A stretch of DNA of 21,337 nt from a virus (IMGVR_UViG_3300023184_000589:1-21337); one strand, 5' to 3'; counted from the first letter of the stretch, positions 2,435 to 20,325 are shown. Program-made: numbers and translations. Notes: a model not told the origin generated them from the sequence alone.

Positions 2435-2998
2435 TTATCTGCTAATTAGAACAGATTTTTTTGTTGATCCTTGTTGAACAGACCAATTTGTTCCTATATA
2501 AGAAATAATAATTGACTTCATAAACTCAATATATTCTCCCTTACCGTCGAATTCTAGATTGTCCTGAATTTCATCATATATTCTATTGATCTTAGGATTT
2601 GTTTCCAGATAGCTGCTTAAACATTTTGATGCGTATTCCATTATTCGCGAAATCTCATTTCCCCCTGCCTTGAATTTCATAGTGTTAGGCTGCGGGACTT
2701 CCTCTTTCTCTACTGCTATGTCTTCTATTAATTCATGGGAAATCTCATTCAATGTAAGTACACAGTATGAATTTTTAGGTCCATCGATAACTTCATTATT
2801 AGAGTATTTACCAATTATAAAATGGAATCCTTTTTCTTTCCCCCCTTTTTCATCTTCTATATTAAAGAAGTAGTTATAAAGATCCCCGTTTTTTACCAAT
2901 AGGAATGGGGAAGTTCCAAATCCATCCGATTCATGAATTGCTTTTGAATCCATGTCATTTATTTTAAATTGTTCGAATGTAGATATTATTCTTCTCAT
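2435..2998 (-). CDS. Unknown protein with a capsid-targeting-like N-terminus
   Basis: A 187-residue protein with no recognised domain. Its start, MRRIISTFEQFKINDMDSKA followed by IHE-S, resembles a T4 capsid-targeting peptide: a short amphipathic aromatic segment (STFEQF) followed by an I-x-E site, where cleavage would fall after Glu23. The body alternates beta-rich segments (residues about 29-64) with a helical C-terminal part (about 110-175). The ATG overlaps the TGA of the ligase-fusion gene (ATGA), so translation is coupled and this is the last gene of a four-gene operon. The leader-peptide pattern recurs in two other genes of the same operon. Function is unknown; an internal virion protein delivered to the host is a reasonable inference. 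Confidence 0.75.
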   Translation of the reverse strand: MRRIISTFEQFKINDMDSKAIHESDGFGTSPFLLVKNGDLYNYFFNIEDEKGGKEKGFHFIIGKYSNNEVIDGPKNSYCVLTLNEISHELIEDIAVEKEEVPQPNTMKFKAGGNEISRIMEYASKCLSSYLETNPKINRIYDEIQDNLEFDGKGEYIEFMKSIIISYIGTNWSVQQGSTKKSVLISR

Positions 2999-5022
2999 TT
3001 TGTAATTTTATTTTTCTGTATTTTTTTTAAAGATTTGATTTCAAGATCTGCAATTTTGCTTTCTGATATGAGCTCTTCGGATTCTTTTATTCCCTTTCCG
3101 TTAATTGAAGAAAGTAAACTATTGTAGAATGAAGAAACCCCCGGTGGAACTAATTTTTTGAATTCTAAAAAGTTCTCTTCTTCTATTGCTTTTCTAACTT
3201 CGGTTCCTGATTTAGATCTAGGTGTTTCTACCACCTCTATTTCTTTAGGGAAATCCCCGCCAGCTTTTTTAAGGTAATCCGCTTGTTTTTTATAGTCCTC
3301 TATCCTATCATCTCCTGCCCCAATTAGATTAACTTTATATCCCATTTCTTTAGCTATTCCGTATATCACGCCTAAAAGACCTTTTTTTGCAGTGAAATAT
3401 CCAGTAATCAAACTCGGATTATCTTTAACTACAGATTCCATATATTTTGAAACAAGATCTTCAGCGAAGGGTGATTTTCCAGATTTGTTATGTCCAGGAT
3501 GTACCACAGCAACTATACTCGGTAAATCGTTCTTCTCCTTAAGGAATTTTGCCATTTTTAAATGACCGTTATGGAAAGGCTGGAATCTGCCAACCAATAA
3601 ATTAACTTCCTTAAGCTCCGGTGCTTTCTCTTCCTCAACAACATTAGGCTTTTGTATATCTTTCTTAGATGTATCAATTGTTTCTAATGTTGAAATGAAT
3701 TCATTATATGAATAGAAGTGATCGTCGTCCTTAGATGCCTCTTCAGATTCACTAGTTACGTAATCCACCTTTTTTGGTTTTAAATTATTTCTTTTAAAGT
3801 CCAAGAATGAAGGCATTTCAGATTCCATCACAGCAGGTTTAGTATCTTTAATGCCTACCTTTTTCTCTATCGAAGACACTACAGAATTAAATTGATCTAT
3901 TATGCCGGGTGTTATTATTCCACCAGCTCTTTTTTTAATTTTTCGGAAAGAATTAAGAATAAGTTTAAATAGTGATTCAAAAGATTCATCTTCATCTAAG
4001 TACTTTAATACTCTTCTGTCGGTTACAAGATTTTTATTTAATCTAAAATCATCTTTCTTTAAATACTCTGGCTCTTGAAAATCCGCTCCTTCATATTTGT
4101 ACGCGTACTCATCAAGGAATTTAGAGAAAACGTCAGAGATAAAAGAAATATATCTTTCGTCTTCAGTAGAACCATTAACTTCAAAAGTATCTACTCCATT
4201 TTCTAGTATGAAATTCATCACATCTAATATGGTGATACCTAAAAAATCGCTAGGTTTTTCTTCTGTTCTTTTCTTAGCTTTAGATTTAGCAAGCTCTGTG
4301 AAAACCGGATCTACCATCTTAGATAATATAGGTTCCTGTTCTTCCTCCTCTTCACCGAATCTAAAAACTATCCCTTCTATTGGTTTTTGGAGATCAGCAT
4401 TTAGTGCTGTTTTTTTCAATTCTGGATTAAGTACACCAATAATAAAAGCAACAAAGCTTCTGGTTTTATACTCAGTTACAAGATCTTCAAAGGGGGTTCT
4501 TAAAAAATCTAATATCTTATCCTTCTGTTCTTTCCCTAAATATCCCTGAAAAATAATAGGAGGTCTTTCAACACCTAATAAATCAGCCCAATTATCTAGA
4601 TCGTTCTTTCCTTGTATTGTTCCTTTTGGCTTACCTAATTGATCTTTTTTATGAACATAAGAAAGAATTAAATTATTCTTAGGAACTTCATCATAAACAA
4701 TCTCTACTGGAGCACTGTTTGCAAAGTACTCTAATCCAAATCTCCATCCTCTAGGGATTTCTTTAATTATATGGGGAGGTAAAGACTCTATGTATTGAAT
4801 AGGTTTTTCGTAGTACTTCATTAAAGTCCTATCGACCAAAGTTATCGGATTTCTTTGATCCCTTTTGTAAAAATTGAATTTTCCCGTTTCTATATCCCTT
4901 TCGAACATAAAAGCAGACCCGTCCATTTTCTCATTAACGGTGACATAAGTATTGAAAAGGTTATCAACAAAATCCTTTCCTTTCTTATTATAGAGATCAT
5001 ATAAATGACTAATTCCTGCCAT
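2995..5022 (-). CDS. Fusion of ATP-dependent polynucleotide ligase domain and HIGH-motif nucleotidylyltransferase
   Basis: A 675-residue protein with two catalytic modules. Residues about 25-250 carry ligase/covalent nucleotidyltransferase motifs: motif I EKMDGS with Lys32 as the likely AMP-accepting lysine, a motif III-like FGLEYF around Glu98, motif IV EGIVF around Glu216, and a motif V-like SKMVDP with Lys235. Residues about 251-470 are a helical, acidic linker. Residues about 473-640 are a nucleotidylyltransferase of the HIGH superfamily: LLVGRFQPFHNGHLKM (H484-x-x-H487), then GAGDDR, then SKSGTEVRKAI, the ISSTxxR-like motif. Relatives of the second module include NMN adenylyltransferases and cytidylyltransferases; the substrate cannot be read from sequence. 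The ligase half may be an RNA ligase, because phages of this type often encode them. The gene follows the Pol-beta-type nucleotidyltransferase by 10 bases. Together these suggest nucleic-acid end repair or modification, or NAD metabolism. Confidence 0.8.
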   Translation of the reverse strand: MAGISHLYDLYNKKGKDFVDNLFNTYVTVNEKMDGSAFMFERDIETGKFNFYKRDQRNPITLVDRTLMKYYEKPIQYIESLPPHIIKEIPRGWRFGLEYFANSAPVEIVYDEVPKNNLILSYVHKKDQLGKPKGTIQGKNDLDNWADLLGVERPPIIFQGYLGKEQKDKILDFLRTPFEDLVTEYKTRSFVAFIIGVLNPELKKTALNADLQKPIEGIVFRFGEEEEEQEPILSKMVDPVFTELAKSKAKKRTEEKPSDFLGITILDVMNFILENGVDTFEVNGSTEDERYISFISDVFSKFLDEYAYKYEGADFQEPEYLKKDDFRLNKNLVTDRRVLKYLDEDESFESLFKLILNSFRKIKKRAGGIITPGIIDQFNSVVSSIEKKVGIKDTKPAVMESEMPSFLDFKRNNLKPKKVDYVTSESEEASKDDDHFYSYNEFISTLETIDTSKKDIQKPNVVEEEKAPELKEVNLLVGRFQPFHNGHLKMAKFLKEKNDLPSIVAVVHPGHNKSGKSPFAEDLVSKYMESVVKDNPSLITGYFTAKKGLLGVIYGIAKEMGYKVNLIGAGDDRIEDYKKQADYLKKAGGDFPKEIEVVETPRSKSGTEVRKAIEEENFLEFKKLVPPGVSSFYNSLLSSINGKGIKESEELISESKIADLEIKSLKKIQKNKITK

Positions 5023-5032
5023 GTTTTAAATT

Positions 5033-5965
5033 TTAACCAATTGTATTTATTTCTGATGGTATTTCTAGTCCAGCTCTTTCAAGATATTCCAAAAATCTTT
5101 GCTTTATTTCAGGCAACCTTTCACGGAGATCAAACTTTGGATCCCCGATTATCTTTAATAGCGCTTCAAATGTTTTAACATCATCTGGTTTATAACCAGG
5201 ACCTAAAGCAAAGTTTATAAATTCCTGTGGATCTCTAGTTACAAATCTTTCACTTCCTTCTAATTTCTTAGAGTGTTTCAATCTGGGTATTCTTGTTCCT
5301 TTATATGACTTGGTGTGCCAGTATAAACCATCGCTAAGAATCAATACAGGAGCATTATAATCCATTATTTCTCCAGCTTCATCTGTATCTATTACTTCTT
5401 TTCTAGCGGACAGTATAGCTGATAAAAGCCAATTTCTGTGTGCTGACTTATATTTGCTCTCGTCTGCTTTATAGTTAGGCGAATAGTAAATAAAATCTGC
5501 CCATTCCATACTGGAAAGAGGTATAAGATCCAATTGGACTATTCCTTTTTGCTGATCCCCTTCTATGGGCCACCCTAAGCTAACTATGTTAAGTCCTTTG
5601 AGATAATTTATTTCGGGTTCGAATCCAAGAGCACCTGCTAATCCAACTCTTAATATAGAATTAACTGCTGCAGAGCATTCCTTAGGACTTATACCATGTT
5701 GGGTGGCAAACAAATTAGAATCATATCCAAGATCAAGATCACCTGATGTATCGTCCATGTTTTTTTTCTTTCCGATACTACCTATTATAATATATTCTTC
5801 ACCATACTTATCCTGGTCTATGCCAAGAATAGGAAAAAGAAGTTCTTTAATGCTGGCTAGGGTTTTTGGAAATTCATCCTCACGAATTCTCCTTGAGGTC
5901 TTTATGGCTGCGCCACCCTCAAATAATTTAAAAAATCCAGAGAAATTTAAAATCCTATCTGTCAT
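5033..5965 (-). CDS. Pol-beta-superfamily nucleotidyltransferase with capsid-targeting-like leader
   Basis: A 310-residue protein with the signature of the Pol-beta nucleotidyltransferase superfamily: GSIG at residues 62-65, then SGDLDLGYD with the paired aspartates D76 and D78, and a third acidic strand VQLDLIPL with D146. All three metal ligands are present, so it is probably active. Residues about 170-310 are mostly helical and could bind the acceptor substrate. The family includes tRNA CCA-adding enzymes, poly(A) polymerases, antibiotic nucleotidyltransferases and toxin-like MNT proteins; I cannot choose among these. The N-terminus, RILNFSGFFKLFE followed by GG, looks like a T4-type capsid-targeting peptide with an L-F-E cleavage site after Glu16. 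The ATG shares one base with the upstream TAA (TAATG), so it is translationally coupled to the 179-residue gene. Confidence 0.8.
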   Translation of the reverse strand: MTDRILNFSGFFKLFEGGAAIKTSRRIREDEFPKTLASIKELLFPILGIDQDKYGEEYIIIGSIGKKKNMDDTSGDLDLGYDSNLFATQHGISPKECSAAVNSILRVGLAGALGFEPEINYLKGLNIVSLGWPIEGDQQKGIVQLDLIPLSSMEWADFIYYSPNYKADESKYKSAHRNWLLSAILSARKEVIDTDEAGEIMDYNAPVLILSDGLYWHTKSYKGTRIPRLKHSKKLEGSERFVTRDPQEFINFALGPGYKPDDVKTFEALLKIIGDPKFDLRERLPEIKQRFLEYLERAGLEIPSEINTIG

Positions 5966-6504
5966 TACTTCTTGTTAATTTTATCATAATATCTTCCCAT
6001 AGCACCAGTTAGATAGCTGCTATATTGTTTCTCGTCATCATTTTTAGGATGAAGCGGTTCGTAGTTTTTACCAAAATATTTTTTACCCTTAAGTGCCCCT
6101 GATTTATAGAAATCCTCTGCATCCTTCTCTGTGACGTTCTTATCCCCTATTTTTTCTTTCTCCCAGTCATCTAGGACATTCTTCTTTTTGGACTTAAGTT
6201 CATCTTTAGACATTTTAGAATAGCTATCTTTAGAATCGCCTTTAAAAAAAAAGTCCGCAATAGCAGCTCCCGAACTAGCTATCAACCTACCAAACAAAGG
6301 CAAAATCGAATTAATTCTGTTTATCGTAGCCTTACCTCCGTCTCCTCCTACAGGATCTGAATCAGCTCTAAGCTTATCGTACTCATACTCCATATTTCCG
6401 TCCACCTTTCTAAGCCATCTGCTTAGTTTGGTGTTTCCCTTGTAATAATCGGTTTCGCTTTCAACTAAAGATTCGGTAAAACTATCAAATTTCTGTATCC
6501 TCAT
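5965..6504 (-). CDS. Probable internal virion protein with capsid-targeting-like leader and hydrophobic segment
   Basis: A 179-residue unknown protein. Its start, MRIQKFDSFTESLVE followed by SE, is the best match in the window to the T4 capsid-targeting sequence (compare MKTYQEFIAE of T4 internal protein III). Cleavage after L-V-E would fall at Glu15. The remaining protein is highly charged and Lys-rich, but has one hydrophobic, Ala/Gly-rich stretch at residues about 66-90 (INSILPLFGRLIASSGAAIADFFF) that could be a membrane-active helix. It is the first gene of the operon and has a candidate promoter motif 17 bases upstream. An internal, injected protein is the most economical reading, but nothing shows an enzymatic role. 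Confidence 0.75.
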   Translation of the reverse strand: MRIQKFDSFTESLVESETDYYKGNTKLSRWLRKVDGNMEYEYDKLRADSDPVGGDGGKATINRINSILPLFGRLIASSGAAIADFFFKGDSKDSYSKMSKDELKSKKKNVLDDWEKEKIGDKNVTEKDAEDFYKSGALKGKKYFGKNYEPLHPKNDDEKQYSSYLTGAMGRYYDKINKK

Positions 6505-6535: not shown

Positions 6536-8077
6536 TTAAAGTTTTATCTTGTATATTTTATATTCAAAGGATTCGTTCTTATAAATCTGTATTCTAGCCT
6601 CAGAGTGTTTCATTAGGTAGTTTTGGTACTTAGGGCTGGAAAAGTCATCCACAAAGTCAATAATATTAACTTTATCCTTGCCCTCCATCTTTCTCATACC
6701 CCTACCCAAGCTCTGCTTAATTAGAACCTCGCTCTTATAAGATTCAACTAAAAAGATATTATGTAGATTATTTATGGAAATCCCCGTCGAGAAAGTTCCG
6801 TATGTGGCAATCAGTATTTTATTTGCTCCTGATGCCATTCTTGTTTTATATTCCTCCCTTAGACCTTCGTTGGTGTCACCATCAACATAGAAAACCTCCT
6901 TATCGCTATTCTTCTCTCTAAGTAGATTCCATATCTGTTTACCGTATTCATCCTTAACAGATTGAAATAATACAAGGGAATTCTTTGAGGTCTTTCCTAT
7001 AAAGTCCACCACATAATTAAGTCTTTTCTTGCTTTCGATTACTAGTTTTCTTTCCAGATTATAAACCTCGTTTCCCTCTAGGTTGTTATTGTTAAGCTTT
7101 AGATCAGCAAGTTTATCTTTGTATTCTTTTTCTAGCCAATCCATAACAACTATCTTGATCGAAACAGGAGTTGCATAGTTATTATCAAAAAGGAAACTAG
7201 GGGATATCTCAACTATAAGTGGACCGAGGAATTGCTGGATTGTTAGGTAATCTGCAGTTCCTCTTTTAGTTAACGTACCTGTTAATCCGAATCTCCACGT
7301 TGAGTGCATACAGTGTGCAACAATCTTTTTGATAGACATACTGTTCGTGTGATGAGCTTCGTCAACAAAGACAAGATCTGCTTCTTCGAAAAATTCCTGA
7401 TCTTGTTTAACCAGGGATTGGAATGTACCGATAATAACGTCACATCCTTCTCTTAATTTAGATCCCCCGCCAATTTGTTGTATTTTAGATCCAAGTTTAT
7501 GTAACCCATAGTCTTCAAAATCTTCACTCCCCTGGAAAACCAGGTTGGTACTAGGAACGATCATAAGGAACTTTCTAATGAGTCCTTTCTGTTTAAGGTA
7601 TGCAAATATCATGAAGGATATTAAAGTCTTACCTGATGACGTTGCAACCTCTGAAATTGAGTATCTGTATTTGATTAGCTTCCATGCAGTTTCGATTTGA
7701 TAATCTCTGGGCATTTTTTCCGGATCGCCGCCAATACCGCCAGCAAAAAATTCATTAACCCACTCAGTGTATTCTTCTAGGGTTAGATCATCGTTAACTA
7801 TTTTATCAAGACCGTTTATCTCAATTTTAATACTGTAGTCTTCGCCAATTTGTAAAACCTCTCTCCATAGTCCTATTGGAACCCTCCAGTAATGGCCTTT
7901 CTTGTCTATGAAACAAATACTTCCGTCCCATATTTTTTTTTTTTTCACCAAGGGGTGGAAAAAATGATTATGAATTTTCTTAGTTAAAGATAATTCTAAT
8001 TGTTTTTTTTCCACCTCCTCCGTGTAGCTTTTCAATATTAAAAATTGCGAATCAGGGGAGACATCAAACTCTAGCAT
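6536..8077 (-). CDS. uvsW: UvsW-like recombination helicase
   Basis: A 513-residue superfamily 2 helicase. The N-terminal part (about 1-115) has KKKIWDGSICFIDKKGHYWR...PIGL, the same layout as the T4 UvsW N-terminal domain (WDGRIRLLD...LPFGL). Helicase motifs follow: a Walker A variant ATSSGKT with K150, GGGSKL and GTFQSLVKQ around 203-225, DEAH at 239-242, FGLTGTL at 263-269, GTFSTGISINNLH at 427-439 and QSLGRGMRK at 455-463. Length and order match T4 UvsW, which unwinds branched DNA, promotes branch migration and helps switch from origin- to recombination-dependent replication. The ATG follows the homing endonuclease stop by one base. UvsY lies on the far side of that insertion, so the T4 uvsW-uvsY neighbourhood is conserved. 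Confidence 0.92.
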   Translation of the reverse strand: MLEFDVSPDSQFLILKSYTEEVEKKQLELSLTKKIHNHFFHPLVKKKKIWDGSICFIDKKGHYWRVPIGLWREVLQIGEDYSIKIEINGLDKIVNDDLTLEEYTEWVNEFFAGGIGGDPEKMPRDYQIETAWKLIKYRYSISEVATSSGKTLISFMIFAYLKQKGLIRKFLMIVPSTNLVFQGSEDFEDYGLHKLGSKIQQIGGGSKLREGCDVIIGTFQSLVKQDQEFFEEADLVFVDEAHHTNSMSIKKIVAHCMHSTWRFGLTGTLTKRGTADYLTIQQFLGPLIVEISPSFLFDNNYATPVSIKIVVMDWLEKEYKDKLADLKLNNNNLEGNEVYNLERKLVIESKKRLNYVVDFIGKTSKNSLVLFQSVKDEYGKQIWNLLREKNSDKEVFYVDGDTNEGLREEYKTRMASGANKILIATYGTFSTGISINNLHNIFLVESYKSEVLIKQSLGRGMRKMEGKDKVNIIDFVDDFSSPKYQNYLMKHSEARIQIYKNESFEYKIYKIKL

Positions 8078-8078
8078 G

Positions 8079-8864
8079 TTATTCTTTTTTATTCACTTTT
8101 ATATTCCATTCTGAAATGGTATTATTTTTTACTCTTTGCCTGGTAGCATTAAAAAATCTAGAGCACTGTGAAATGTTATTGAAAACAATAAGATCTCCTG
8201 TTTCTATATTTTTTGCTTCCACGGTTTTTGAATTTTTTTGTTCTTTGTTTATATTACTATTTTTTATTCTCTCTTTAGTTTCCTCTGAGTGCTCTCTTTT
8301 TTCTAAACCTTTTGATATTTTATTTCTGTGACTATCTGATAATCTTTTACCTGTATGTGCTTTTGATAATCTTTCCTTAGTTATATCGGATAGCTTAATA
8401 CCCTTTCTTTTTTCCGATGCTTTTTTTCTTCTTTCCTCTGACCACATTTTATTTTCAACCCCTTCCTTTCCCTTATTAGCCTCCGAAATCTTTTTTTTAT
8501 GATCCTCTGTTATTTTTAACCCATATCTAAATGATTTTTTTCCAACATATTTCCCTTTTAAAGAGTTTGATATTTTTTTTGAGATCTCCGGACTTGTCAT
8601 AAAAAGCGATCCCCCAGGGGCTAGATTATATCCGACACTTGGGTCCCTTGAATTTAGCTCCTTTATCCAAAAAATTTCTCTTTCGTTCAATTCATTATAA
8701 TCTTTACTGTATTCTATTATTTCTTTCTTAAAATTATCTATCCCTAATTCAGATATAGCTTTTTTGATTAAAATGCCACTGCCATAATAATTAGGTTTAT
8801 AATTTTTCTCTTGCCCTATATAAATCAAGCCGGTAATTACATTCGTTATTTTGTAAATATTCAT
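8079..8864 (-). CDS. Free-standing GIY-YIG homing endonuclease with NUMOD3/NUMOD1 repeats
   Basis: A 261-residue protein. Residues 2-4 (NIY) and 15-17 (YIG) form the GIY-YIG motif, followed by YYGSG at 26-30 and NEREIFWIKEL at about 60-70, with GYNLAPGG at 78-85 closing the nuclease domain. Residues about 92-205 hold five or six NUMOD3-like helical units (pattern SEE.KKKISEA.KGK), which contact the DNA minor groove in relatives. Residues about 213-255 look like a NUMOD1 helix-turn-helix (AKNIETGDLIVFNNISQCSRFF). This is the Seg-type architecture of T4-like phages. It sits between uvsY and uvsW without intron signs. The DNA looks more AT-rich than its neighbours and shows heavy Lys/Asn/AGA codon use, consistent with independent acquisition. 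It promotes its own spread by cutting alleles that lack it. Confidence 0.9.
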   Translation of the reverse strand: MNIYKITNVITGLIYIGQEKNYKPNYYGSGILIKKAISELGIDNFKKEIIEYSKDYNELNEREIFWIKELNSRDPSVGYNLAPGGSLFMTSPEISKKISNSLKGKYVGKKSFRYGLKITEDHKKKISEANKGKEGVENKMWSEERRKKASEKRKGIKLSDITKERLSKAHTGKRLSDSHRNKISKGLEKREHSEETKERIKNSNINKEQKNSKTVEAKNIETGDLIVFNNISQCSRFFNATRQRVKNNTISEWNIKVNKKE

Positions 8865-8877: not shown

Positions 8878-9321
8878 TTATTTTACTGTGGAGCCTCTTA
8901 AATAGTCTTCAAGAGATATTCTGGATTTCACCCCATATAGCATATGATCCACAGTTTGTATAGTTTGATCTATGAATTTTCTGTGGCTTTCAACAAGCTC
9001 TATCTTTTCTGCTATCTCGGTCAAATCGCCATCAATCAGTACTGTTTTTTCATTTGCCCCATATCTAACGTCGCTTCTCTCCGAGTAGTCTTTTAACTTC
9101 TTAGCTTTTTCTACTCTTTCCTTAGAATTAAGTTTAGATACAATTGCTGCTAACTTATAGCTGTATTCCAATAAAACTTGACGCTGACTGAACAGATCTA
9201 CCTGAGCTTTAGCAAGGGTCTTTATATCCTTCATCTGAATAGCTATTACTTGTATTGTTTCTTTCCATTCAGCTCTCTCGTTTTCGAAGATCTTACTGAA
9301 ATCTGTTTTTTCCGTTGACAT
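8878..9321 (-). CDS. uvsY: UvsY-like recombination mediator
   Basis: A 147-residue, mostly helical protein. The segment from residue about 76, KLKDYSERSDVRY...EKTVLIDGDL, followed by about 45 residues ending HMLYGVKSRI, parallels the T4 UvsY C-terminal half (LDYYSGRGD...YEKSEMKTVLSADKD ... ALDAIKSRGFAIKH). T4 UvsY loads UvsX recombinase onto gp32-coated single-stranded DNA. Identification is by motif order and length, supported by position: only a homing endonuclease separates it from uvsW, and gp32-like and primase genes lie just upstream. The start codon immediately follows the previous stop, suggesting coupled translation. Confidence 0.75.
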   Translation of the reverse strand: MSTEKTDFSKIFENERAEWKETIQVIAIQMKDIKTLAKAQVDLFSQRQVLLEYSYKLAAIVSKLNSKERVEKAKKLKDYSERSDVRYGANEKTVLIDGDLTEIAEKIELVESHRKFIDQTIQTVDHMLYGVKSRISLEDYLRGSTVK

Positions 9322-16866: not shown

Positions 16867-18603
16867 TTAATTGGCTCCTCCCCCAGTTTTAGCAGTTGCA
16901 TTAGTTGCAGTTACAATTACAGGTGCAGCAGAAACTATAGTTCCGATACTATAAATATCTGACAATGATATGTATCCGCTAGTGCCATCACAAGTTTTCC
17001 AGAATATTCTAGGATTACCATTAGTAGTACTAGCTACGCCCAAGTATGTTAGATCAACATAGCAGCTTTGCATAGCATAGGCATTCAATGTAAGTTGTGG
17101 TCTAAAACTAACGTAATATTGAATAGTCTTAACCGTATTTTTTGTGGTGTGATAATTAAACACCAAACCGTTTATCTTATAGCTTTGACCTGCAGAAATA
17201 TCATTAAGGAATATTCTATATGTATTGTTATATCCCTTATTGTATAATCCATCAACGTCATTACTACTATAAGTAGGTATTCTGATATAAACCTCATAAT
17301 TAGCTGAATAGTTATATGATGTTGGAGTTGCAAGTATTAGATTACTGTCCCAGTAAGCAAGCGAAGTTAGATCCATCACGTTATAAACGGTGGATGGAGT
17401 CGTTGTGCTTAAACCCCAAGGGAATGCGCTGACTGAAATTGTGGATGATCTAACTTCTTTTACTCTTTTAACAGGATATAGATATGGGCCTCCGGTAGCA
17501 CCAGCAGGTTGACCCCCGGTAGATCCGAATGTAGTCTGGAGATGTTTACCTGAGGATACACTTCCTCTAGGCTTAGCTGATAATATGGGAGCATTTTTAT
17601 AGTCAAAAAACTCAAAGGCTGAATCTTGAGCACTAGAAGATAGTATCGATATACCAGCAGTAGAAGTTGTGGTTCCTGTTGGTGTGCTTTTCCCCGCACT
17701 GAAAACATACTGTCCCGACGAGTCATTGGTAATTTGAACCTTTATAGGTATTCTAGAGATTAAACTCGCAGAAGACAAAGTTAAATTCGAAGAAGATATA
17801 GAAATATCGCTACCTACACCAACTGTTGTGTTTGAGTACAGATAGAAATCACCGGTTCCGCCTAGATTAAAATCATTAACTGATGTTATTTTTGCGCTCT
17901 GCCCATATAAAAGTGTTCTTGCAGTATAAGAGTCTATGGTAATTCCTAATAACGATGAGATTTCAAAATTACCAACGGAAGTGTATCTCAATGAAGCTGA
18001 ATTACCCAAAGTTCTCCAATAGAATGAGGGTACACCTGTGGAAATTGCACCAGTCTTAGAAAAAGATAATATAGGTCTAGTTATTTGATCCTCAGTAGAC
18101 ACTAATAACTTGCTTCTAGTTGGATTTATACCTGACGCTGAAGAATAATCATCGTCTATAACTAAAGATGTATTAGACTCGTTTAAATTCCCGCTTTTTA
18201 TACCTACTGCATACTTATCAATTACACCTGCAGGTCCAACTATTCCGTCATATACAGCAAAATAAGAGGAATTAAATAATGAATATCCGCTATATGACCA
18301 AGAACCGGTAGTACCTAATACGTTTACCGGGTAGTCGCTACTATTAGAATCTATCCACAAATCAAAAGGATTGCCTGATGTTGGTGCATCATCAAGTTTT
18401 GACCAAAGGGTTCCTCTTAGACCTGTTGGCCCAGTTAAACCGGGGTTTCCGGCAGGACCATCATATCCATTAGGTCCTTTAGAACCCTGATGTCCATTCG
18501 GGCCCACAGCAAAAGAAAGAATCTGATCAAAATTATAATTAATCTTCCTTTTTATATCCGAAGCTGAATCTCCAGTAAAAATATATTTAGTGTTAAAGTG
18601 CAT
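16867..18603 (-). CDS. Collagen-like tail fibre protein, third of the tandem paralogues
   Basis: A 578-residue fibre protein. Residues about 15-31 (IKRKINYNFDQILSF) match the start of the neighbour (KVNSNFSDLLSF) and probably form an attachment or trimerisation helix. Residues 34-64 are a collagen-like Gly-X-Y tract with Pro, ending LRGTLW. Later landmarks shared with the next gene upstream are FYWRTLGNSASLRY around residue 195 and a long Ser/Thr-rich beta region. The C-terminal 200 residues differ from the paralogues, as expected for a receptor-binding part. The last residues (TNATAKTGGGAN) are flexible. Confidence 0.85.
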   Translation of the reverse strand: MHFNTKYIFTGDSASDIKRKINYNFDQILSFAVGPNGHQGSKGPNGYDGPAGNPGLTGPTGLRGTLWSKLDDAPTSGNPFDLWIDSNSSDYPVNVLGTTGSWSYSGYSLFNSSYFAVYDGIVGPAGVIDKYAVGIKSGNLNESNTSLVIDDDYSSASGINPTRSKLLVSTEDQITRPILSFSKTGAISTGVPSFYWRTLGNSASLRYTSVGNFEISSLLGITIDSYTARTLLYGQSAKITSVNDFNLGGTGDFYLYSNTTVGVGSDISISSSNLTLSSASLISRIPIKVQITNDSSGQYVFSAGKSTPTGTTTSTAGISILSSSAQDSAFEFFDYKNAPILSAKPRGSVSSGKHLQTTFGSTGGQPAGATGGPYLYPVKRVKEVRSSTISVSAFPWGLSTTTPSTVYNVMDLTSLAYWDSNLILATPTSYNYSANYEVYIRIPTYSSNDVDGLYNKGYNNTYRIFLNDISAGQSYKINGLVFNYHTTKNTVKTIQYYVSFRPQLTLNAYAMQSCYVDLTYLGVASTTNGNPRIFWKTCDGTSGYISLSDIYSIGTIVSAAPVIVTATNATAKTGGGAN

Positions 18604-18612
18604 ATCTGTATC

Positions 18613-20325
18613 TTAAAATGCTGTTGAATTTGTAGTGTACATTACCCCGCATTTACTTCCCGATATATTACCGCCATATGCGCTATAGTAAACTTTAAAC
18701 CATCTACTGGTTCCTCCTGTAGAACCAGATCCTTTTATATTCATAATCGTAAAATCTATATGTGAAACCCCTATAGCAGTGGCTCCAGTTAAATCTATAG
18801 CCTGGACAGAACCAGAAGGAGCATAAGGTGGATCACTAAAGGTATTAGTCGTGTTTAGCCCTAAGAATCTAATGTATTTACTATCGGAATCTGTTCTGAC
18901 GCTAAAGCTAATTGCTTCGTAATCGTTTAACATGTTTAGCCATCCGCCATTGTTATCAGTACCGCTTCCACCCGTTGCTGGTGTCCATAAGCAAACCCCT
19001 ACTGTATCGGAAGGACCATATGTTCCAGGACTGATAACAAAATCCGAACCATTATTTGCATTTATTCTCTGTGACTGTAGTCCAGTAGCTGAATATACTG
19101 CACCTGGTATTGCGGTATACCACTGAACAGTAATAGTCGGACCTCCCAGGTTGGTAGGGGCGGTAATAGTAGCTGTAAGAGACTGCGGCGGTTGTATTGA
19201 GTTAATTCTTTTATTATACCAAACTTCACCATTAGCTTTAACATCGAAAATAATTTCGCTTGAGGTGTAAGCAAGAAATAATCTAGATGCTCTACTTGAT
19301 ATAGTATTTAGTGATCTGTATGAAAGGTTGCCCGAATTTGCCTTTGTGCTTTCTAGCCAAAGCGGGGGTAGTGATGAATTTAATGTATTAGTAAAACTAA
19401 AAGTAAGAGGCATCTCGAATTTATTTCCCCCCGCAGCTATAGTGTATTTCATGTTTCTATTGGATAGTAGCATACTTCCAGTAGAAGAAAAATTAAATAT
19501 AATTTTACCCAAAGCTGATATAGTAAGTCCCTGGCTTCCGCTAAGATTCAGGTTGAATCCAGTAGAATTATATATTGAGTTAGTTCCTCCATTGCTTGTT
19601 GTTGATAGATTTAATTGGCCAGAAGGAATATCAAAAAATAAAGAATCCCCAATTTTCCAAGAAAGCCCATATTTTAAAGAGGCAGATGTAGATGTAGAAG
19701 ACCAATAGAATCTAGGTATTTTAGAATTAAAAGATCCGTTTGACCCGTAATTGCTTTTGCTAAATGTCATCAGATTTTTTCCGGTTGCTCCTCCGTCAAT
19801 GGCTATAATTACTTTAGAATATTGCGGGTTTGCACTTGCTGTAGCACCAGCTGAAGACAGAGAGTTATCGCTAAGTACTAAGGTATAATCGGAGGGATTT
19901 ATTGAAGTTAAGGTATATCCAGTATAAGAAGAATTTCCGACCGATGTTTGAATATTAGGATAAAGTCTAAATATATCCTGGGAAAGAATACCAAATCCAT
20001 ATTGGTTCCAACCAGAGGATGTAGAAAATTGATATATTGGATTGCCTAAGCCTAGTCCGGTATTCAACCAAAAATCATTATTAATATATCCGGTTGATCC
20101 TGGATTTGTATCACTTATAGTCCAAATACTTCCTCTTTCCCCCATATCACCATAAGAACCAATCGGACCAGTTTGCCCAGTATCGCCCTGAGGTCCTTGA
20201 TCACCTATCTTACCATAAGGGCCTCCACCAAATGACAATAGATCAGAAAAGTTGGAGTTGACTTTATCAACTAGAACCTTCTGATTGTCTCCTTCTTGTA
20301 TTCTTAGTAATTTTAAATCCGGCAT
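18613..20325 (-). CDS. Collagen-like tail fibre protein, second of the tandem paralogues
   Basis: A 570-residue fibre protein with the same plan as its downstream neighbour: N-terminal KVNSNFSDLLSFGGGP, a Gly-X-Y tract at 35-65 (GPYGKIGDQGPQGDTGQTGP...), then SIWTISDTNPGS, a domain with FYWSSTSTSASLKY, and a distinct C-terminal domain containing YYSAYGG and one cysteine in SKCGVMY. The shared NYNF/NSNF helix, glycine tract and FYW...SASL landmarks make paralogy clear, while the C-termini have diverged. It begins nine bases before the end-to-start junction with the next fibre and is preceded by a candidate promoter motif. Confidence 0.87.
   Translation of the reverse strand: MPDLKLLRIQEGDNQKVLVDKVNSNFSDLLSFGGGPYGKIGDQGPQGDTGQTGPIGSYGDMGERGSIWTISDTNPGSTGYINNDFWLNTGLGLGNPIYQFSTSSGWNQYGFGILSQDIFRLYPNIQTSVGNSSYTGYTLTSINPSDYTLVLSDNSLSSAGATASANPQYSKVIIAIDGGATGKNLMTFSKSNYGSNGSFNSKIPRFYWSSTSTSASLKYGLSWKIGDSLFFDIPSGQLNLSTTSNGGTNSIYNSTGFNLNLSGSQGLTISALGKIIFNFSSTGSMLLSNRNMKYTIAAGGNKFEMPLTFSFTNTLNSSLPPLWLESTKANSGNLSYRSLNTISSRASRLFLAYTSSEIIFDVKANGEVWYNKRINSIQPPQSLTATITAPTNLGGPTITVQWYTAIPGAVYSATGLQSQRINANNGSDFVISPGTYGPSDTVGVCLWTPATGGSGTDNNGGWLNMLNDYEAISFSVRTDSDSKYIRFLGLNTTNTFSDPPYAPSGSVQAIDLTGATAIGVSHIDFTIMNIKGSGSTGGTSRWFKVYYSAYGGNISGSKCGVMYTTNSTAF

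Follow-up and report, generated by a model that had tools for sequence, protein, structure and literature searches.

The locus described here raises the question of what function is served by a single viral protein that joins a ligase-type domain to a nucleotidyltransferase (NTase) domain with HIGH-type motifs. The window, i.e. the whole stretch of viral DNA that was analyzed (IMGVR_UViG_3300023184_000589, 21,337 nucleotides), contains an uninterrupted reading frame on the minus strand, from an ATG at 5022 to a stop codon at 2997-2995, and the plus strand of 2995-5022 is full of stop codons. The original prediction, that one protein combines a ligase-type domain with an HxGH/SGTEVR nucleotidyltransferase, is borne out by the fold and profile evidence. 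The motifs are all present in the product (EKMDGS, residues 31-36; FGLEYF, 95-100; EGIVF, 216-220; HNGH, 484-487; SGTEVR, 605-610), although the location of the gene on the minus strand had been missed. Modeling of the whole protein with AlphaFold2 (AF2) from 38 family members gave a mean pLDDT of 76, both domains being well predicted and the linker (residues ~394-467) mostly disordered. Comparison of the model with the PDB by Foldseek ranked T4 RNA ligase 2 (Rnl2) first, followed by NMN and NaMN adenylyltransferases; the ligase fold anticipated for residues 1-250 is thus present. The fusion gene comprises the following features.

2995-5022, minus strand: fusion gene, 675 residues; RNA-ligase-like domain, helical domain, disordered linker and HIGH (NMNAT-like) NTase domain (reading frame, AF2, Foldseek)
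4243-5022, minus strand: ligase-like adenylyltransferase domain, residues ~1-260, with K32, R54, E98, E216 and K235 (fold, motifs, HMM)
4927-4929, minus strand: codon of K32, the predicted adenylylated lysine of motif I, EKMDGS (conservation)
3838-4242, minus strand: helical domain, residues ~261-395 (AF2 secondary structure, alignment)
3796-3810, minus strand: linker motif SF406LDF409, a CTS-like aromatic-x-x-Phe (alignment)
3694-3708, minus strand: linker motif Y439NEF442I, CTS-like (F442 in 56/57 members)
3100-3618, minus strand: HIGH nucleotidyltransferase domain, residues ~469-641, with HNGH, GDDR and SGTEVR (Pfam, NCBIfam, profile, fold)

The N-terminal half is a Rnl2/RNA_ligase-type adenylyltransferase domain containing motifs I, Ia, III and IV and one motif-V lysine. 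Foldseek matched it to 2hvr (T4 Rnl2; E = 1.4e-6) and also to 1s68. Motifs I (KxDG), Ia (R), III (E) and IV (EG) of the nucleotidyltransferase fold are represented by K32, R54, E98 and E216, four residues that are kept together and lost together across the family. Position 32 is a lysine in 47 of 57 distinct family members and N or D in decayed lineages; its place in motif I is the correct one for the adenylylated residue, the role that had been predicted for it. The Pfam family RNA_ligase (PF09414) scored 15.7 bits against a cut-off of 27 for the window protein (E = 0.017), and the cut-off of 27 was reached (1e-6) by the orthologue L015 of genome G004, with neighbours in frame. The family HMM scored 25.3 bits against a bacterial (Enhygromyxa) RNA ligase, the best of 1400 shuffles reaching 9.2. 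The gene of this bacterial ligase adjoins a gene for an HD-polynucleotide-kinase-like protein, the two forming, in Enhygromyxa salina (L219, 2926-4877), a cellular RNA-repair pair related to the phage ligase. The sequence match of the ligase half to T4 Rnl2 itself was not significant, and a sequence-profile search of the PDB with the alignments of the ligase and of the Polβ protein described below gave nothing convincing, matches being obtained by fold comparison alone.

Motif V of the fusion reads K235-M-V237, not KxK as in T4 Rnl2, and V237 is present in 53 of 57 members. The equivalent residue of Rnl2, K227, is the second motif-V lysine, which is required for self-adenylylation of that enzyme (PMC3149579). 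Loss of this lysine was considered as a sign that the ligase domain does not self-adenylylate and depends on the HIGH domain; it was not retained as diagnostic, K-V-I being found at this position also in an Rnl5-like ligase of the related genome G003. The valine nevertheless favors a very unlikely alternative, in which the HIGH domain would adenylylate 5'-phosphate ends directly (App-RNA) and leave only strand joining to the ligase domain. HIGH enzymes join AMP to phosphate monoesters, as this alternative requires, but none is known to act on polynucleotides, and both the K-V-I ligase from the same genome group and the conservation of K32 argue against it.

The C-terminal half is an NMNAT-type HIGH domain. 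It contains the HxGH and (S/T)xxxxR motifs in the expected fold and was matched by Pfam CTP_transf_like (PF01467; 27.4 bits against a cut-off of 21; 4e-6) and by NCBIfam TIGR00125 (4e-8). Profile comparison with NMNAT structures gave 1e-10, and Foldseek retrieved archaeal NMNATs (target TM ~0.72). The equivalog for NMN adenylyltransferase, TIGR01527 (NadM), was not reached (22.4 versus 181.2 bits).

A single-sequence query of IMG/VR retrieved 78 loci, on contigs of up to 434 kb. The fusion cannot be due to chance or misassembly since nearly all of these loci show the same full-length protein, the others being cut by contig ends; it is complete in some 70 IMG/VR contigs, many of which come from large phages. 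A further scan yielded 197 relatives, and 80 of them were retained. The fusion is also carried by LR756500 (462 kb). Five records of 634-735 kb match the ligase half only, and the three examined in full end before any NTase domain. A genome-contig scan of cellular assemblies returned partial relatives only, and BFVD contains one full-length match, named merely 'cytidyltransferase-like'.

A Polβ-type partner is encoded in the same overlapping gene string as the fusion. The neighbors of the fusion gene are as follows.

2435-2998, minus strand: 187-residue protein; start overlaps the fusion stop (ATGA); found in 72 loci
5033-5965, minus strand: Polβ-fold nucleotidyltransferase, 310 residues (GSIGKK...SGDLDLG...QLD), directly upstream of the fusion gene
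5918-5965, minus strand: N-terminal tag of the Polβ protein (MTDRILNFSGFFKLFE followed by GG), predicted capsid-targeting sequence and prohead-protease site (homologues, pLDDT)
5965-6504, minus strand: 179-residue protein with a CTS-like start (MRIQKFDSFTESLVE); stop overlaps the Polβ start codon; found in 44 loci
6536-8077, minus strand: UvsW-type helicase, the syntenic anchor (Pfam ResIII, 6e-22)

The AF2 model of the Polβ protein (pLDDT 90) was matched by Foldseek to Pol beta/mu and Cid1 with probabilities of up to 0.99, yet with E about 4e-3. The GS...DxD...D signature of Polβ enzymes is present, G62, S63, D76, D78 and D146 being invariant in the alignment of homologues, and no Pfam, PHROG or NCBIfam family was assigned at the thresholds used. 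A homologue was found in 68 loci, nearly always directly beside the fusion gene. The 187-residue protein is joined in frame to the fusion protein in three loci (L020, L097 and L099). A gene for a GIY-YIG/NUMOD3 homing endonuclease (8079-8864, minus strand) directly precedes uvsW, where T4 has segE, and was found in only 4 loci. A probable uvsY (8878-9321, minus strand; Pfam UvsY, E = 0.027, below the cut-off) is positioned beside uvsW. The T4 gene rnlB is separated from uvsW and uvsY by a few genes, and in S-CREM2 uvsY is followed by uvsW and then by the virion cytidylyltransferase gene, located 3 genes after uvsW. Elsewhere in the window, tail-fibre-like genes (186-1023 and 16867-20325) contain collagen-like Gly-rich repeats, and a plus-strand reading frame at 186-455 (PDVPDVP) is apparently the antisense artefact of a repeat of this kind.

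The same domains recur in other arrangements. In phage Atu_ph07, a relative of the ligase (22.5 bits; best shuffle 6.6) overlaps a relative of the Polβ protein (1e-59), and a HIGH enzyme is encoded elsewhere in the genome. Downstream from this pair (L089, 6609-9225), three similar proteins in tandem (PLYRGI...) are possibly ADP-ribosyltransferase-like effectors, a guess from the motif. A protein of Microcystis phage Mel-JY01 has the order reversed, the NTase preceding the ligase. Used as a query, it matched 304 viral-contig stretches, of which 80 were kept; in 39 of these 80 marine loci, a single frame contains both HIGH and ligase motifs, with a P-loop kinase motif as well in 20 of the 39. 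The kinase of L119, the one locus in which a Pfam match was checked, matches AAA_33/zeta toxin. Several marine loci (L119, L123, L172 and others) encode long polyproteins combining a zeta-toxin/AAA_33-like kinase, a HIGH NTase and a ligase, in which junctions of the LIE/GG type could be prohead-protease sites (the slash marks the putative cut). Direct kinship of the window ligase with the marine GHMxHPFD-type ligase was not significant at the sequence level; in LR756500, a marine-type ligase that has the lysine is directly followed by a K32-less fusion. Motifs and gene order hinted at Polβ and ligase homologues in phages Moby (gp048/gp050) and X1 (WEM34317/WEM34319), but profile comparison did not support them, the sole supported relatives in these phages being the NTases Moby gp051 and X1 WEM34320. 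S-CREM2 gp156 and gp160 were likewise rejected as ligase or Polβ partners, their PHROGs showing no such family match.

The observation that NMNAT is the nearest solved fold raises an alternative that we regard as unlikely, although by no means negligible: the HIGH domain would be a true NMN adenylyltransferase rebuilding NAD+, with phage NadV or host NMN, during anti-phage depletion. As part of the same reading, the ligase would use NAD+ (or ATP) as AMP donor, and the NMN product would be recycled by the fused HIGH domain. A NadV-type protein (PF04095) was found in 6 of 10 large relatives, in three of which (G002, G003 and G008) no HIGH NTase other than the fusion was detected, and, as in NadR, a P-loop kinase is present in marine homologues. 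The remaining 4 relatives, whose contigs may be incomplete, yielded no NadV. Against this reading, the ligase is devoid of domain Ia, with which LigA binds NAD, an NMNAT is already encoded by the host, and the Polβ protein would be left unexplained.

Certain lineages have retained the protein following loss of catalytic residues. In the L058 lineage, K32 is replaced by N, E98 by V, A or L, and E216 by D, and SGTxxR is gone. The L051 lineage lost the HIGH motifs and retained those of the ligase. Inspection of the sequences showed that the motifs are intact in L006, L014 and L017. HIGH-motif decay and Polβ loss go together: by HMM search, the Polβ gene was present in all members with intact HIGH motifs except L026 and L099, and no homologue was found in any member with decayed HIGH motifs. 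In the UvsW tree, the decayed lineages form two groups, and L101, a member with intact motifs and a Polβ gene, is placed beside one of them. This placement would mean two losses, although the length of the branch leaves a single loss possible. Pairwise dN/dS in the folded domains of the L058 lineage was ~0.01-0.1, as in intact members, values that are rough because many dS are near saturation. Purifying selection acting on motif-less lineages indicates that catalysis is not the whole function; judging from the sequences, the protein must have a non-catalytic role, in the decayed lineages at least. As a side observation, the 735-kb phage LR756501 (L081) encodes a K32-less ligase-like protein and a separate regular RNA ligase (53% to the Enhygromyxa enzyme).

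These lineages bear on the possibility, doubtful in our view, that the fusion is mainly a structural or packaging virion protein of enzymatic descent (a scaffold or internal head protein) in which catalysis is dispensable. The L058 and L051 clades lost the HIGH motifs, the L058 clade lost K32 too and, where tested, evolves under strong purifying selection, and the 634-735 kb phages that were examined retain only the ligase-like half, without K32. The helical domain, kept in all aligned members including those without the NTase, and the linker motifs are among the most persistent parts, F406 and F409 being invariant in the alignment although most of the linker has a pLDDT below 50. Against a primarily structural role, most of the family retains complete, co-conserved active sites in both domains together with the Polβ gene.

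The linker motifs resemble signals for targeting to the phage head. T4 internal proteins begin with MKTYQEFIAEA or MKTFKEFT, and Y439NEF442I of the fusion is comparable to the MKTYQEFI of IPII/IPIII. In T4 IPIII, residues 4 and 7 mediate targeting, and residues 8 and 10 permit cleavage (PMC9026906). A T4-type tag consists of ~10 N-terminal residues with aromatic residues at 4 and 7, I or L at 8 and E at 10, removed by the prohead protease. The fusion has no N-terminal tag, its YxxF/FxxF motifs being internal and devoid of the Glu needed for cleavage; another FxxF is found at the in-frame junction to the 187-residue part in L020, L097 and L099. In the Polβ proteins, a variable N-terminal tag ends with [LIVMF]xE/GG in 57 of 59 homologues, and residues 8-17 have a pLDDT below 50 in the AF2 model. 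In G003 (400 of 434 kb; L222-L241), 47 of 506 predicted genes start with a CTS-like pattern, versus 11.8 expected from internal methionines; this fourfold excess possibly corresponds to dozens of injected proteins. S-CREM2 gp154, an NTase relative by PHROG family, has a perfect tag (MKNFSSFLTEA) and was reported in virions, its authors allowing for a contaminant of the virion preparation (PMC10665884). The original prediction had paired the domains correctly; it did not foresee their wide spread, the reversed marine order and the Polβ partner, nor the signs of head targeting and the lineages devoid of catalytic residues.

A further alternative is a host take-over effector, the module nucleotidylating host proteins or a small metabolite. 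Injected T4 Alt modifies the host RNA polymerase (PMC9026906), certain Polβ enzymes are toxins, and MenT3 is among the weak Foldseek matches of the Polβ protein. Such a role is highly improbable, since both the relationships of the ligase and its fusion to kinases indicate action on nucleic-acid ends.

We tentatively favor a reading, somewhat short of probable, in which the fusion is a nucleotidyltransferase that travels in the phage head and enters the cell with the injected DNA, serving RNA-end repair and/or NAD supply. Judging from the tag-like motifs, the Polβ protein would be targeted to the head and cleaved at LxE/GG, and the fusion would be targeted by its internal, probably uncleaved, motifs. 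Lys32 would take AMP, enabling the ligase domain to seal, or at least to 5'-adenylylate, broken RNA, most probably tRNA cleaved by defence RNases of the host. By analogy with the proposal made for RlaP, the Polβ partner may restore missing 3' nucleotides ahead of sealing. The HIGH domain would condense ATP with a phosphate monoester, most simply NMN to form NAD+, the substrate being the least certain step, and the NAD+ would replace the pool depleted by host defence or serve as AMP donor. RNA-end repair is favored on three grounds: the relationships of the ligase, the Polβ partner and the fusion to a kinase in marine relatives. Counting against it, most genomes searched also encode one or two ordinary RNA ligases, by which general tRNA repair would already be covered; L026 and L099, with intact motifs and no Polβ gene found, count against the favored reading. 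A more elaborate scheme, which we consider improbable, is an injected, self-recycling, NAD-coupled RNA repair system: the ligase would take AMP from NAD+, the NMNAT-like domain would turn NMN back to NAD+ with ATP, and the co-injected Polβ protein would restore nucleotides, some phages having later made the protein a non-catalytic head component.

The NTase set recurs in very distant T4-like and giant phages, in various domain orders and seemingly built for virion delivery. If the favored reading is correct, phages bring an RNA-repair or NAD-restoring activity along rather than wait for its expression, which bears on how phages survive rapid tRNA cleavage or NAD destruction by host defences. 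The same reading would also assign a testable role to the numerous 'cytidyltransferase' proteins of marine phages, and would exemplify an enzyme that became non-catalytic and was nevertheless retained.

Each domain of the fusion belongs to a known superfamily, and copies of the fusion are already present, unannotated, in public databases. In the available portions of the non-subscription literature, no description was found of the Polβ pairing, the reversed marine version, the head-targeting signature or the retained pseudoenzymes. UniProt A0A6J5NWC5, from an uncultured Caudovirales phage, has the whole architecture (30% identity over 666 columns) but is named only 'cytidyltransferase-like', with no function proposed. 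T4 Rnl2 (rnlB; PF09414) shares with the fusion its fold, the order and spacing of motifs I, Ia, III, IV and V, and the proximity of the gene to uvsW, whereas the fusion has Val in place of the second motif-V lysine, a different C-terminal part and a fused HIGH domain. Archaeal-type NadM (1EJ2, 1F9A; TIGR01527) has the same fold and the GRFQPFHxGH and SGTEVR motifs; the fusion differs by a GDDRxxDY segment and by a score far below the equivalog cut-off. Cyanophage proteins of phrog_395 and phrog_3041 (S-CREM2 gp154; S-PM2 Q5GQJ8 and A0A0M6VVW4) contain a related HIGH domain, and gp154 is further similar in its position after uvsW, its head-targeting N-terminus and its reported presence in virions; in contrast to the fusion, cyanophage cytidyltransferases either stand alone or are combined, in another order, with a ligase-like family of a different type (GHMxHPFD). 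The RlaP Polβ and RNA ligase pairs of jumbo phages embody the same concept of a Polβ enzyme beside an RNA ligase, although the RNA-repair section of that report mentions no HIGH fusion (PMC7824862). Finally, KVP40-type NMNAT/Nudix (NadM) and NadR are, like the fusion, phage HIGH enzymes with a second fused domain, the partner being here a ligase instead of a Nudix or kinase domain.
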